Assembly: GCA_903952205.1 (NCBI GenBank) | Contig: CAJBEZ010000037.1 | Location: 124,001 to 188,000 of the forward strand | DNA length: 64,000 nucleotides | Source of the DNA: an uncultured Desulfomonile sp. | GTDB taxonomy: Bacteria > Desulfobacterota > Desulfomonilia > Desulfomonilales > Desulfomonilaceae | Direction of reading: 5' to 3' | Shown: piece after piece, positions 3,239 through 57,684 of the stretch | How the letters are laid out: every line of letters begins with the position of its first letter | How positions within the stretch are numbered: position 1 is the first letter of the stretch | The notes under the pieces: model-generated | Seen by the model: only the letters and a program-made list of their open reading frames with translations | Told to the model about the DNA's origin: nothing | The model's database searches: none | Made by a program: the position numbers and the translations under genes

Positions 3239-3835
3239 ATGGCCCGTGGCAGAACCATAGGGCGCGGCAATCCAATACGAATCATGGCGTCTCACGACAA
3301 CATACCATCGCGTTTCCCTGAAGGTAGACCCCTCGATCATGACACAGGATCATGGTGGATCCTTCATTGCAAGCCAAACCGGGAATGGAAGCTTGCCAAA
3401 TTCCTTCTGAAACATGAAATCAGCTATTATCTGCCCATCTATGAAAGAAAAACCAGAATCGGTTATTTTCGCCGTGAAAAAATAATACCGACCCCTCTTT
3501 TCAGGGGATATATATGCTTCGCCCTGGACAGAAACGCTCACCACCTTCTTTATGAGACCCACGATTTTGTCAGAACAATAAATGTCAATGACCAGGATAA
3601 GTTTGTCCACGAACTAGAGTTAGTCTCAAGAGCAATAGAAACCGGGCAGGACCTTTTCGTGATGCCCGGAATCAAGAAGGGTCGTCGAGTTCAGATCACA
3701 TCTGGTCCATTGAAGGGCGCTGAAGGAATAGTGGTAGGCCGTTCGAAAAAAGGCCAGTTCGCTATAACGGTTGAGATGTTCAACCGGACTGTGATTGTAA
3801 ACGTTGACCCATTCACGAACCTGGAACTCGCTTAA
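3239..3835 (+). CDS. NusG/RfaH-family transcription elongation factor paralogue
   Basis: 198 residues. A basic N-terminal extension of about 36 residues precedes an NGN domain starting at WWILHCKPNREWKLAKFL and containing YLPIYERKTR and PLFRGYICFAL. A KOW domain follows (GIKKGRRVQITSGPLKGAEG). The NGN sequence resembles specialised paralogues (RfaH, UpxY, LoaP) more than housekeeping NusG, because it has RGYICF where NusG has GY(I/V)LV. Such factors bind RNA polymerase and prevent termination in long polysaccharide operons. The gene downstream is on the opposite strand, so its target operon is not adjacent. The start is uncertain: no Shine-Dalgarno precedes 3239, and an ATG at 3284 is in frame. 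Confidence 0.8.
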   Translation: MARGRTIGRGNPIRIMASHDNIPSRFPEGRPLDHDTGSWWILHCKPNREWKLAKFLLKHEISYYLPIYERKTRIGYFRREKIIPTPLFRGYICFALDRNAHHLLYETHDFVRTINVNDQDKFVHELELVSRAIETGQDLFVMPGIKKGRRVQITSGPLKGAEGIVVGRSKKGQFAITVEMFNRTVIVNVDPFTNLELA

Positions 3836-5916: not shown

Positions 5917-6750
5917 CTAGGCTCCCTTGAAATTTCCTTTTTTCTTTTGCATATATGCGGAGAAAGCCTCAAAAATGTCTTCTGACGGCATTATCATTGA
6001 TGATCTCGCCGCATTGAAGTCCAGAGCGCGATCAATTGGAACTCCTTGATTATAAAGGAATACGTCCTTTGCGCCTTGAACCGCCAGAGGAGGATTAGCC
6101 GCTATTTCCATGGCCATTTTCATGCCTTCAATATTCATGGTCTCCTGATCAGGGTAAACGTGATTAACCAGATTAATGGCGAGCGCATGCCGGGCTTCAA
6201 ATCTGTGACCCCTAAAAGCTATTTCCCTGGCGTGTCCCTGTCCCACCACTCTGGGTAGGCGCTGCAATCCTCCGACATCCGTAATTATCGCCAAAGTAGC
6301 TTCAGGTAGTCCAAAAACAGTCTCAGCGGAACAAATCCGGAAGTCACAACACAGCGCCAGTTCAAGGCCCGCTCCTAGACAGTGTCCATGAAGGAAAGCT
6401 ATACTCGGTTGAGAAAGTTTTTCCAGTCTGTTGTGGTACCCTTGTATACGCTTTACGACTTTGTAGAAGGCTATCTTCTGGTTTGCGGATGGGGTTCCAG
6501 TGACCATAGGTATAAGATCATTTTCCGGGCTTAGGTCGAGACCCGCACAAAAAGACTTTCCCTCTCCCCTGAGCACGACTACCCGACTTTCAGGATCTTC
6601 CTCAGCGCTGGAAATCGCCTCGTTCAAGCTGTCCCAGAGGCGCAGGCTCATGGCGTTACGTTTTTCAGCTCTATTAAGGGTTATAAAACCAACATGATCT
6701 TCTCGTTGATAGGTTACCAGGCTTTTCCCGTTTTGATTGTTTTCACCCAT
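5917..6750 (-). CDS. Crotonase-family enzyme, probable delta(3,5)-delta(2,4)-dienoyl-CoA isomerase
   Basis: 277 residues of crotonase fold. Oxyanion-hole segments are KSFCAGLDLS and HGHCLGAGLELALCCDFR. The active-site stretch reads LPEATLAIITDVGGLQRLPR: a Glu followed eight residues later by an Asp inside DVG-LQRLP. This pair and spacing is the signature of ECH1-type dienoyl-CoA isomerases; ordinary enoyl-CoA hydratases have a small residue at the Asp position. The second hydratase-type Glu (AREIAF) is also present, so hydratase activity is not excluded. The gene lies 58 bp upstream of the FadH-like reductase on the same strand. The two would form the reductase-dependent route for acyl chains with odd-position double bonds. 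Confidence 0.8.
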   Translation of the reverse strand: MGENNQNGKSLVTYQREDHVGFITLNRAEKRNAMSLRLWDSLNEAISSAEEDPESRVVVLRGEGKSFCAGLDLSPENDLIPMVTGTPSANQKIAFYKVVKRIQGYHNRLEKLSQPSIAFLHGHCLGAGLELALCCDFRICSAETVFGLPEATLAIITDVGGLQRLPRVVGQGHAREIAFRGHRFEARHALAINLVNHVYPDQETMNIEGMKMAMEIAANPPLAVQGAKDVFLYNQGVPIDRALDFNAARSSMIMPSEDIFEAFSAYMQKKKGNFKGA

Positions 6751-55719: not shown

Positions 55720-57315
55720 TCAGGAAACCCATACAGTCTCAATATGGCAACTCGCCATATCAACTATCAACTTAGGCTGATTCGATAAAATATCCCATGA
55801 AACAAATACACCTGAAGGATCTGCCAAATTCTGACTTTCCATACCGACAGCCTCCTTCATTTTCTCGAAAGCTCTGGCCACTGTGCGAGTTATAATCCTT
55901 TCTATCCCAAGCTCGTTGTTGAGTTGTTTCAGAGAAGGACTAGCCTGCATCTGTTCAATAGCTTCCTCCCAATGAATGCCTGCAACCTTCTTCCTCAATA
56001 CATAACCATTACCCCTATCTCGAATTATAAGCAGTGGGGGGTTGAATCGCATCTTGGTAGTACGGAAAATTACGACAGGTTCTTTGTCGGAAGCTTTGGA
56101 CAAAAGCACTCTTTTGTTTTCCATGAAATTCAGCGTTCTCAACTGAATACGTTCAAAAATGAAATTTGCCCCGTTGAGTTCTATCTCTTTGAGTCTAGTT
56201 GGATCAAAACCTAGATCAATCATATCTCCCAGGGTTAATGGATCGTGGATCGTTTTTCCGTTTCGTTTCAACCAGAAAACAAAGCTTGGTCTGTTATAGT
56301 TTGGCAATGCTTCAATGAAACGCGCAGGGTTGGATTTCAGTTGTTCCGGTAAAAGTAGCCAAAGTTCACGGTCTCCAGAGACAAAGCAGGTCCGGCTTTT
56401 GAATTCTATTGGGCCATATGATTGGGCTGGCATGTCCCTGATCGCCGGGTCCAGAGAGATCTGTTCCATAGACTCTCCACCGGTATATCCAAGCAACTGG
56501 GAGATTCTCCTCCTGAACCCTAGGAGTTTAGTGATGTAACGTGTGAACATAAACCGCATCAGGGAATCATGATTACCGGAAGCAACCTGAGTCTGAAAAT
56601 AGGTCAGAAGCGCCTGATAGAGTTCCTTGAATTCTTCAATGGTCCTTTGAACCATGAATTCATTGTCCCTCATGTCAATGGCCGGCCGTTTTCTTTTTAT
56701 GTGATGAACCAGCTTAACAATTGAATCTTTCAAATCTTTACCACTGAAAGACGGGGGAACGTAAATCATGTAGGCGTCATCGGCTTCGTTTGAAAGGGAC
56801 GAACATTCGGAGATCTCTTTTAAGGGGACCCAGTCGAGCTTCCGATAAATTTCAAAAGTTGGATCATCTCTTGGTATTATATTGTCAAGAACCCCAATCG
56901 CCGATTTCTCAACCAAAAAGTTCCTAAACTCTTTTAAAATAAGGTTTCCAAGTCCCTTGTTTCGGAATGGGGCCCCAACCTCGACATAAACAAGATAAAA
57001 GCACGGAACAGGTTTATTCAGATATAGCATATTCATTCGACCCAGGTTCTCACCTGTTTCTGAATTGATTTCAAAGGTTTTGAAGCCCTTGGTTGACCTG
57101 TTACCTCTGAGCTTGTCAATTTTGGCCCCGGAAACAGTCGCATCCACCAAGTTCCACAGCTCTTCATAAAGATTTGACGCAACAGGGTTGTCTGTGCCTC
57201 CGTGCCGAATGCCTTCGTGAATTAAATTGATGAGCGACAACCTGTCGGTGATACTTAGTTTCCTAAGTGAACCACAGTCTGTCGAGTTTTTTTCCAAAGC
57301 AACTTTTTCCAGCAT
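55720..57315 (-). CDS. GNAT-domain protein with a long C-terminal region of unknown function
   Basis: 531 residues. The N-terminal 185 residues form an N-acetyltransferase fold: VYVEVGAPFRNKGLGNLILK gives the acetyl-CoA loop (RNKGLG, near 118), followed by NIIPRDDPTFEIYRKLDWVP. The remaining 340 residues have no motif I recognise. They include a helical, charged stretch (FMVQRTIEEFKELYQALLTY), a middle with DRELWLLLPEQLKSNPARFI and a C-terminal part with RAFEKMKEAVGME. There is no membrane segment. A Phe/Tyr-type attenuator precedes the gene, so expression may rise when charged tRNA-Phe or tRNA-Tyr is scarce. The start at 57315 has GGAA about eight bases upstream. Confidence 0.75.
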   Translation of the reverse strand: MLEKVALEKNSTDCGSLRKLSITDRLSLINLIHEGIRHGGTDNPVASNLYEELWNLVDATVSGAKIDKLRGNRSTKGFKTFEINSETGENLGRMNMLYLNKPVPCFYLVYVEVGAPFRNKGLGNLILKEFRNFLVEKSAIGVLDNIIPRDDPTFEIYRKLDWVPLKEISECSSLSNEADDAYMIYVPPSFSGKDLKDSIVKLVHHIKRKRPAIDMRDNEFMVQRTIEEFKELYQALLTYFQTQVASGNHDSLMRFMFTRYITKLLGFRRRISQLLGYTGGESMEQISLDPAIRDMPAQSYGPIEFKSRTCFVSGDRELWLLLPEQLKSNPARFIEALPNYNRPSFVFWLKRNGKTIHDPLTLGDMIDLGFDPTRLKEIELNGANFIFERIQLRTLNFMENKRVLLSKASDKEPVVIFRTTKMRFNPPLLIIRDRGNGYVLRKKVAGIHWEEAIEQMQASPSLKQLNNELGIERIITRTVARAFEKMKEAVGMESQNLADPSGVFVSWDILSNQPKLIVDMASCHIETVWVS

Positions 57316-57366
57316 TTTTGAATTCCGTTCATGTTTTTCTTAAAAAAACGGGTCTGAAAAATAAAA

Positions 57367-57390
57367 AAAGCGGAGTTTGCGCTCCGCTTT
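57367..57390 (-). terminator. Intrinsic terminator in the leader of the GNAT-domain gene (attenuator 3:4 hairpin)
   Basis: Minus strand: AAAGCGGAG, loop CGCAAA, CTCCGCTTT, then T's broken only by one A. It lies 52 bp before the start codon of the downstream gene and 26 nt after the stop codon of the leader peptide. The placement makes it a regulatory terminator rather than the end of an upstream gene. Confidence 0.75.
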
Positions 57391-57415
57391 GGTTTATCTA
57401 TTTATAATCTTGCCC

Positions 57416-57484
57416 TTAGCGAAGACGCGCCATATTCCTTCCGCAAAAATAAAAGTAAAAATATATTTTGGAAAAATTAATCAT
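57416..57484 (-). CDS. Phe/Tyr-rich leader peptide of a putative attenuator
   Basis: 22 codons, too short for routine gene finding. The ATG at 57484 lies six bases after AGGTG. Residues 8-13 are YFYFYF; Phe occurs four times and Tyr three times in the first 13 residues. The segment GCGGAAG (57444-57438) begins within codon 14, directly after the run. CTTCGC (57424-57419) forms codons 21-22 just before the TAA. The two can pair with one bulge. CTTCGC can instead pair with GCGGAG (57387-57382), and a GCG/CGC extension brings this to nine pairs. This is the classical 1:2, 2:3, 3:4 arrangement. AT-rich DNA favours Phe and Tyr codons, so chance must be weighed. Confidence 0.6.
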   Translation of the reverse strand: MINFSKIYFYFYFCGRNMARLR

Positions 57485-57504
57485 AATATTCACCTGTATA
57501 TTGT

Positions 57505-57533
57505 CTTTTACTGTCTGAATCTATTTTTGTCAA
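57505..57533 (-). promoter_or_regulatory. Promoter of the attenuator leader
   Basis: Minus strand: TTGACA (57533-57528), a 17-bp spacer and TAAAAG (57510-57505, 4/6). The transcript would begin just before the leader ribosome-binding site, as in known attenuators. Confidence 0.5.
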
Positions 57534-57684
57534 CAGTAATTGGCGGCTTATGTCGGAGTTCGCTCGCAAATCTTCCGCTTGTAACTTCCTGAGTGGATAA
57601 GGCAGGAGAAATGAATTCCAGCTATTGCGCCGATATAGAATTGTGGAATACTAATAAGAGATATCATCAAAAGAGGGGCTGAAA

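Follow-up and report, generated by a model that had tools for sequence, protein, structure and literature searches.

The DNA analysed here, a stretch of 64,000 nucleotides from an uncultured Desulfomonile sp. (hereafter the window), carries on its minus strand a gene for a 531-aa protein, preceded by a promoter, a short leader ORF with a run of aromatic codons and an intrinsic terminator (Table 1). The -10 hexamer of the promoter, TAAAAG, is a poor match and a gap of 20 nt separates the promoter from the leader ORF. The Shine-Dalgarno-like sequence sits 6 nt 5' of the leader ATG, and about 25 nt lie between the leader stop codon and the terminator, which is then found 5' of the 531-aa gene.

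Table 1. Features of the leader region and of the gene behind it (window coordinates)
Feature	Position	Strand	Basis
Sigma-70-type promoter TTGACA-N17-TAAAAG (-35 at 57533-57528, -10 at 57510-57505)	57505..57533	-	direct reading of the sequence; relatives
Shine-Dalgarno-like AGGTG of leader ORF	57491..57495	-	sequence; SD regions of relatives
Leader ORF MINFSKIYFYFYFCGRNMARLR, 22 codons and TAA (57418-57416), ATG at 57484	57416..57484	-	sequence; homologous leaders
Control codons Tyr-Phe x3 (YFYFYF)	57446..57463	-	sequence; aligned runs; codon use
Segment 1 GCGGAAG, partner of segment 2	57438..57444	-	duplex of -6.3 kcal/mol
Segment 2 GCGTCTTCGCT, at leader stop codon	57418..57428	-	duplexes; within- versus between-species matching
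Segment 3 AGCGGAGCGC	57379..57388	-	2:3 duplex
Intrinsic terminator 3:4 AAAGCGGAGCGCAAACTCCGCTTT, T run reaching 57363	57363..57390	-	scan; -12.7 kcal/mol
Putatively regulated gene, 531-aa GNAT-domain protein (ATG at 57315)	55720..57315	-	

Three mutually exclusive pairings can be drawn in this leader. Segments 1 and 2 form a weak duplex of 7 bp with one bulge (-6.3 kcal/mol), segments 2 and 3 pair over 9 bp with one bulge (-14.7 kcal/mol; 10 bp and -15.8 kcal/mol with one extra base of segment 3), and segments 3 and 4 form a hairpin of -12.7 kcal/mol followed by a run of seven T. A first-pass annotation of the sequence had described a TTGACA promoter leading into a 22-codon YFYFYF leader, four segments (57444-57438, 57424-57419, 57387-57382 and 57375-57370), the bulged 1:2 and 2:3 duplexes and the 3:4 terminator. 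All of this was confirmed, the layout by direct reading.

The 531-aa protein consisted of a GNAT domain (residues ~59-212), a helical linker and a C-terminal domain. Profile PF00583 matched 46 of the 47 members of set A2 at E<=1, the best at 1.5e-9; A2 combined the window with 46 of the 62 loci introduced below (L026 was left out on account of a stop codon, and others were partial or missing). The window protein was the one member without a match and displayed none in a separate domain search, while NCBIfam and solved-structure profile searches gave marginal GNAT matches only. Its predicted fold matched GNAT chains over residues 64-212 (best Z 9.4, rmsd 2.9, 116 aligned residues). The earlier assignment as a GNAT-domain gene thus held through homologue profiles and predicted fold, but not through a PF00583 match of the window protein itself; on profile and modelled fold, the regulated protein is a member of the GNAT superfamily. 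No confident relative of the C-terminal domain emerged from fold searches (best match Z 8.0, rmsd 3.7, 151 aligned residues; Foldseek E 1.9e-3). A resemblance of this domain alone (pLDDT 88) to the N-lobe of kinases and aminoglycoside phosphotransferases was rejected, lying within the stated noise of the tool.

The tree of 47 GNAT proteins (L046, L050 and L074 among those left out; midpoint root for drawing only) grouped the 25 rows displaying a GCGGAG-type leader in one clade of 35, metallo-beta-lactamase fusions included. The other clade, of 12, was composed of rows from aro operons and with other leader types. Set A4 comprised 45 loci and the window. In seven loci (L036, L037, L039, L046, L049, L050 and L051) an N-terminal metallo-beta-lactamase-fold domain was fused to the GNAT protein, giving ORFs of 853-863 aa (the Lactamase_B profile was run on L036 only). 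An aromatic leader ORF with terminator by scan preceded the fusions L039, L046, L049 and L051; fusion L050 and locus L059 displayed an aromatic ORF and no terminator by scan, and no leader was found ahead of L036 and L037.

The GNAT protein was present in 16 out of 18 genomes of the window's family and in 17 out of 60 more widely sampled relatives, own genome counted. A contig scan with one genome per species gathered 62 GNAT loci, with titles naming Desulfomonile, Desulfobacteraceae, Syntrophaceae, Desulfarculaceae and delta proteobacterium NaphS2. The leader was found directly upstream of the gene in all 16 gene-bearing family genomes, and examples of leader peptides from relatives are MTATHTFINFYFYFSGRTAMP, MSVTFRSYFYFYFQRRTTALLR and MIAISAQGFYYYFYFRRNPASS, each closed by a stop codon. 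In G006 (C4:11720-13320; L014/L018) the GNAT gene appeared as two adjoining matches, residues 1-166 and 177-531, which is a frameshift or an assembly error of the draft genome.

Taken singly, the elements of the leader are ordinary. A terminator scan of the region returned five sites against 4.8 expected, so that the hairpin alone is unremarkable; so is the promoter, which was absent from the promoter scan output because its -10 lacks the required last T. The combination was defined as an ORF of 10-40 codons with at least four of six codons aromatic and a terminator within 80 nt, and the leader was its sole match on both strands of the window. Leader and terminator were present at 40 of 57 eligible GNAT loci, as opposed to four matches in the remaining sequence of these loci (both strands counted, ~0.93 Mb). 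Eligible loci had at least 300 nt upstream, and the search covered 600 nt before the gene or, for fusions and operons, before their start; L026, L033, L038, L079 and L080 had too little upstream sequence, and the loci counted are not all independent since some share one genome. Among the 40, the leaders of L039, L046, L049, L051 and L064 lay ahead of a fused or operon start. The remaining 17, L068 and L073 among them, displayed no leader with terminator by scan.

With at least five of six aromatic codons, 34 of the 62 loci matched and only two matches occurred elsewhere in 931,298 strand-bases. The first of these is the leader of the operon in L064, in which the GNAT gene comes last, and the second is an FWWWW leader at L065. 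Among first-order Markov resamples drawn from 60 upstream regions, none of 2400 satisfied the five-of-six criterion, versus 31 of the 60 real regions.

A set of 35 leaders (alignment A3: 31 of an initial 36, plus the window, L009, L010 and L016; L047, L063, L065, L070 and L074 omitted) was used to describe conservation. L047 was rejected as a leader, its aromatic codons being the T run of the terminator itself. TTGAC and TA elements spaced by 16-18 nt occurred within 110 nt upstream of all 35 leaders, a raw count with no chance baseline. Shine-Dalgarno-like sequences were displayed in the aligned leaders, in which translatability was read from the sequence, and the terminator motifs GCGGAG and CTCCG were invariant. 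Phe or Tyr codons made up 199 of the 206 run codons, a count that is partly circular because the runs were located by their aromatic residues. Variation in the runs followed the pattern expected for Phe/Tyr, with T/A at the second and T/C at the third codon position. Aromatic codons, promoter, terminator and complementarity recurred down to ~40 % protein identity; conservation of the Phe/Tyr codons in relatives, proposed in the first-pass annotation as a check, was in this way borne out.

Synonymous codon use set the runs apart from the genes behind them. In the same 24 loci, TTT:TTC stood at 68:2 in control runs versus 193:312 in GNAT genes (Fisher p 1.9e-23), and TAT:TAC at 49:20 versus 192:197 (p 0.001). 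This bias and the recurrence of the run by a fixed criterion at 40 of 57 loci are not circular, unlike the run-codon count. They bear on a first alternative, that the region is no more than an AT-rich stretch with a few Phe/Tyr codons lying by chance beside an ordinary terminator. AT-rich DNA should indeed contain TTT and TAT codons, matches to promoter and terminator were here no commoner than in shuffles, and six successive TWY codons occurred 12 times in the own genome, as often as a reversed control pattern. Among those TWY matches examined, none except the leader itself had a terminator (L090, which overlaps L089, was left out). Yet the 24 loci average 52 % G+C and their runs depart strongly in TTT use from the genes they precede, and neither this, nor the recurrence in all 16 gene-bearing family genomes and at 40 of 57 wider loci, nor the failure of every resample, fits a chance origin, to which we assign a negligible probability.

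The alternative pairings were compared between leaders by a species-wise duplex permutation, in which own duplexes were set against cross-species pairings and kinship was ignored. Region A ran from leader start to run, region B surrounded the stop codon, reaching from 12 nt upstream to 18 nt downstream of its first base, and region C comprised the terminator loop together with the arm 5' of it. Own A:B duplexes averaged -17.4 kcal/mol versus -13.4 for all pairings of the 35 leaders, and own B:C duplexes -16.4 versus -14.1. With kinship ignored, none of 2000 permutations was as good for either A:B or B:C, as against 1160 of 2000 for the control A:C. Segment 2 accordingly fitted segments 1 and 3 of its own species better than those of other species over this wider set. 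Within groups, A:B reached 4/5000 in group I (19 leaders) and 29/5000 in the Desulfomonile group (nine leaders), and B:C 11/5000 in the latter; B:C in group I was not significant (1559/5000). Both 1:2 and 2:3 were thus backed by compensating change in the whole set of 35 and in the Desulfomonile group, whereas in group I only 1:2 was. Neither pairing was significant in the seven leaders of the window's genus plus L066 (A:B 598/5000, B:C 5000/5000). Stem pairing in relatives, likewise put forward as a check on the annotation, was hence upheld across the 35 leaders but not within the group of the window's own genus.

Taken together, the sequence displays a promoter with Shine-Dalgarno-like sequence and short ORF, a run of control codons and an intrinsic terminator. 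The promoter, the translatable ORF with its Phe/Tyr run and the exclusive pairings are evidence read from the sequence, from which we infer how ribosome and polymerase would behave. The region very probably acts as a ribosome-mediated transcription attenuator that responds to the charging of tRNA-Phe and tRNA-Tyr, the reading of the first-pass annotation, and the recurrence of the module in relatives supports it. RNA polymerase would transcribe the leader with a ribosome following. When Phe- or Tyr-tRNA is short, the ribosome would stall in codons 8-13 and mask segment 1, which lies just after the run in the window's genus and just before it in other leader groups; segment 2 would then pair with segment 3, no terminator would form and the GNAT gene would be transcribed. 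When both tRNAs are plentiful, a ribosome at the stop codon would cover segment 2 and the 3:4 hairpin would terminate transcription.

The position of segment 1 was not constant. Its placement after the run, as first annotated, applied to the window's genus but not to group I and the Desulfomonile group, in which the start of the leader ORF takes this role; in L028, for instance, GCCACACAC pairs with GUGUGUGGC at the stop codon. In the window's genus this ORF-start pairing was weak, L021 excepted (-15.6), and a post-run segment paired with the stop region instead, at -15 to -16 kcal/mol in L019, L020, L021 and L075 and more weakly in L056 (-9.8), L066 and the window (-6.3); these are energies only and lie outside the permutation test. 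The proposed logic is unchanged by the shift, because a ribosome stalled on the run would mask both positions. RNAalifold on the whole A3 alignment returned the terminator hairpin only, the probable reason being that the register of segments 1 and 2 differs from group to group. By eye and on predicted folds, L063, L064, L065, L074, L046 and L051 displayed the same order of competing hairpins with a different RNA sequence; L070 had an aromatic leader and a terminator, and an order of competing hairpins that was not clear-cut.

Related leaders were not restricted to GNAT genes. A covariance model (R1) was trained on the 35 leaders, and its matches to the 16 family leaders, all in the training set, hold by construction. 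Weaker R1 matches in the family were leaders ahead of other genes. Mostly-Phe leaders (such as MIHISCPFFFFSFRRYKRAG, followed by a stop codon) preceded a CoA-transferase family III gene in six genomes (L123, L125, L126, L127, L136 and L137; assigned by Pfam on L123 and by similar N-termini for the rest). The terminator and post-stop sequence of these leaders resembled those of GNAT leaders L022 and L024, as though a copy of the module had been placed there.

Leaders with F, Y and often W preceded DAHP synthase, which in L124 is followed by prephenate dehydrogenase, EPSP synthase and shikimate dehydrogenase. Nineteen of 24 DAHP-synthase loci displayed an aromatic leader ORF, 13 of these with a terminator by scan (L149 was not counted, L154 was unreadable and the leader of L144 was seen in a separate reading only); L148 and L156 had no aromatic leader. 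The DAHP synthase of the own genome, found by protein search, has an F/Y/W leader, MGSQINNTAKINVEFNNGVYFYFWRYYYSSVYPLPEGYRD (G000:C105, L151 ~1163-1420), of 40 codons and containing VYFYFWRYYY. In it, segment CUGUCUACCC could form a duplex with GGGUAGACAG, and a T run follows the hairpin GGCCAUGGG..CCCAUGGCC, which resembles a terminator and has a long loop (read from the sequence). R1, trained on GNAT leaders, missed this leader, and its two weak own-genome matches outside the GNAT leader displayed no aromatic leader.

Searched against 297 genomes of the phylum at E<=0.001, R1 matched 24. Of the matches, 22 were inspected: three proved to be GNAT leaders, two of which share their exact peptide with a training leader, 13 were aromatic leaders of other genes, and the remaining six (L177, L178, L179, L183, L186 and L187) displayed no aromatic leader and were set aside as chance matches. 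One of the 13, VRRNFVKSDFFYFYFFSGSGLPMG in L188 (~1480-1640), has a terminator-like hairpin and is without an assigned downstream gene. Genes behind aromatic leaders included shikimate kinase-chorismate synthase (L171 by Pfam; L175 and L189 by similarity), DAHP synthase-prephenate dehydratase (L172; L180-L182 by similarity), aminotransferases (L173 and L185), a DeoC-family aldolase-DHQ synthase II pair (L184), a CoA-ligase-like gene (L176) and a metallo-beta-lactamase-fold gene (L174) resembling the domain fused to GNAT in seven loci.

The GNAT gene itself lay directly behind pheA in L064, L068 and L073, pheA being recognised as chorismate mutase, prephenate dehydratase and ACT by Pfam in L064 and L068 and by similarity in L073. 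ADTH synthase and DHQ synthase II were found upstream in L064, chorismate synthase upstream in L068, and anthranilate synthase genes downstream in L073, neighbours being called from ORFs. The L064 set has its own leader (ending in FNFYWFYYALVYPLRLADR) and a similar one (ending in YYFYWFWYAKVYPPFLVDR) precedes the GNAT gene of L074; no leader was present in the available upstream sequence of L068 and L073. The FWWWW leader with terminator of L065, on the minus strand near 6450, is of the classical kind of Trp leader, and the gene behind it is presumably anthranilate phosphoribosyltransferase (trpD). Control codons accordingly tracked the gene: GNAT leaders had Y/F, those of CoA-transferase mostly F, those of DAHP synthase F and Y, often with W, and the leader of the trpD-like gene W. 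The putative link of the GNAT gene to aromatic amino acids, annotated from leader codons, is at the sequence level supported independently of these, because leaders akin to it stand before genes of aromatic biosynthesis and pheA immediately precedes the GNAT gene in three loci.

The leader might instead encode a small aromatic peptide with a function of its own, or else an arrest peptide, with the terminator under other control. Its ORF has a Shine-Dalgarno-like sequence and a start codon, and the aromatic run is kept, all of which would suit such a peptide. The residues flanking the run vary widely, however, and the run itself is a mixture of Y and F, to which some leaders add W; what is kept is the complementarity to the stop-codon region and the terminator, and aromatic leaders of other RNA sequence recur before aromatic genes. 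A peptide function is on these grounds very unlikely.

Group I leaders (e.g. L034, ~3420-3446) displayed a small hairpin between run and stop codon with AGG or GGG in the loop and varying arms (CUGG/CCAG, GCGG/CCGC, CAGG/CCUG and CGCG/CGCG), followed in 17 of the 19 by an in-frame AUG-X-stop. The mean z of this hairpin was -1.56 against mononucleotide shuffles, and its alignment (A5) comprised 17 of the 19 leaders, near-copies L031 and L048 being omitted. A polymerase pause hairpin or an internal Shine-Dalgarno sequence are possible roles. It was not seen in the window's genus and is for this reason excluded from the claim made here. Both the hairpin with its loop and the AUG one codon before the stop could suit a sensor of translation in general, in which the GGAGG-like post-run sequence would serve as an internal Shine-Dalgarno pause or as initiation site for a two-codon ORF, AUG-X-stop. 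Control codons that follow the downstream gene speak against general sensing, which we hold to be improbable.

If the region is the Phe/Tyr attenuator proposed, the GNAT gene would belong to an aromatic amino acid attenuation regulon of Desulfobacterota. As the arrangement is kept in dozens of related anaerobes and similar ones occur ahead of their aromatic synthesis genes, the gene is probably switched on at Phe/Tyr shortage; the model predicts that its protein would be made when Phe or Tyr run short, and the product probably serves or regulates Phe/Tyr supply. Only tentatively, and at somewhat less than even chances, do we extend this to a phylum-wide leader regulon, in which the codon mix (F; F+Y; F+Y+W; W) would set the branch and GNAT would have a hitherto unrecognised role in Phe/Tyr supply, as an enzyme or as a post-translational regulator. 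As part of that same reading, GNAT would possibly act in an acyl-CoA route to arylpyruvates, together with the products of the CoA-transferase III, CoA-ligase and aminotransferase genes that are likewise under leader control.

Rfam displayed no match at gathering score anywhere in the window. The best sub-threshold match of the leader was Phe_leader RF01859, which groups the enterobacterial pheA and pheST leaders and combines a Phe-rich leader peptide, alternative hairpins and a terminator. The window leader aligned over the whole model (positions 1-125) but reached only half the gathering score (27.5 of 55 bits), and is hence not a member. It differs from Phe_leader in its Tyr/Phe control codons (Trp in some relatives), phylum and target gene. 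Leaders of the ilv type are multivalent, several amino acids being sensed by one leader; in contrast, the mixture sensed here would consist of aromatic amino acids, F/Y or F/Y/W, and changes with the gene.

According to PMC1183508, attenuators of the trp/his type have control codons in region I, exclusive II:III and III:IV pairings and a race between ribosome and polymerase, the same logic as proposed here; sensitivity in the attenuation model depends on the choice among synonymous control codons, and pheA attenuation is already known. Relative to that description, two of the three leader groups differ in having segment 1 upstream of the control codons, group I in its separate small hairpin between run and stop, and all in the GNAT-domain target. 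Leader peptides of hisS were found through analysis of premature terminators (PMC2965389), likewise by comparative genomics, but sense His; the words "phenylalanine", "aromatic" and "deltaproteobacteria" are absent from the main text of that paper as available. The mechanism is of a known kind, whereas RNA family, phylum, mixed-aromatic control codons and GNAT target appear new within the open-access literature, where none of the titles among the matches listed concerned aromatic-mixed leaders in this phylum or a GNAT target.

With this leader, a conserved protein family gains a precise candidate physiological signal, Phe/Tyr limitation, and the data point to a family of aromatic leader attenuators in Desulfobacterota. 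Since control codons differ with the downstream gene, the codon content of leaders could help to predict the function of other uncharacterised genes.
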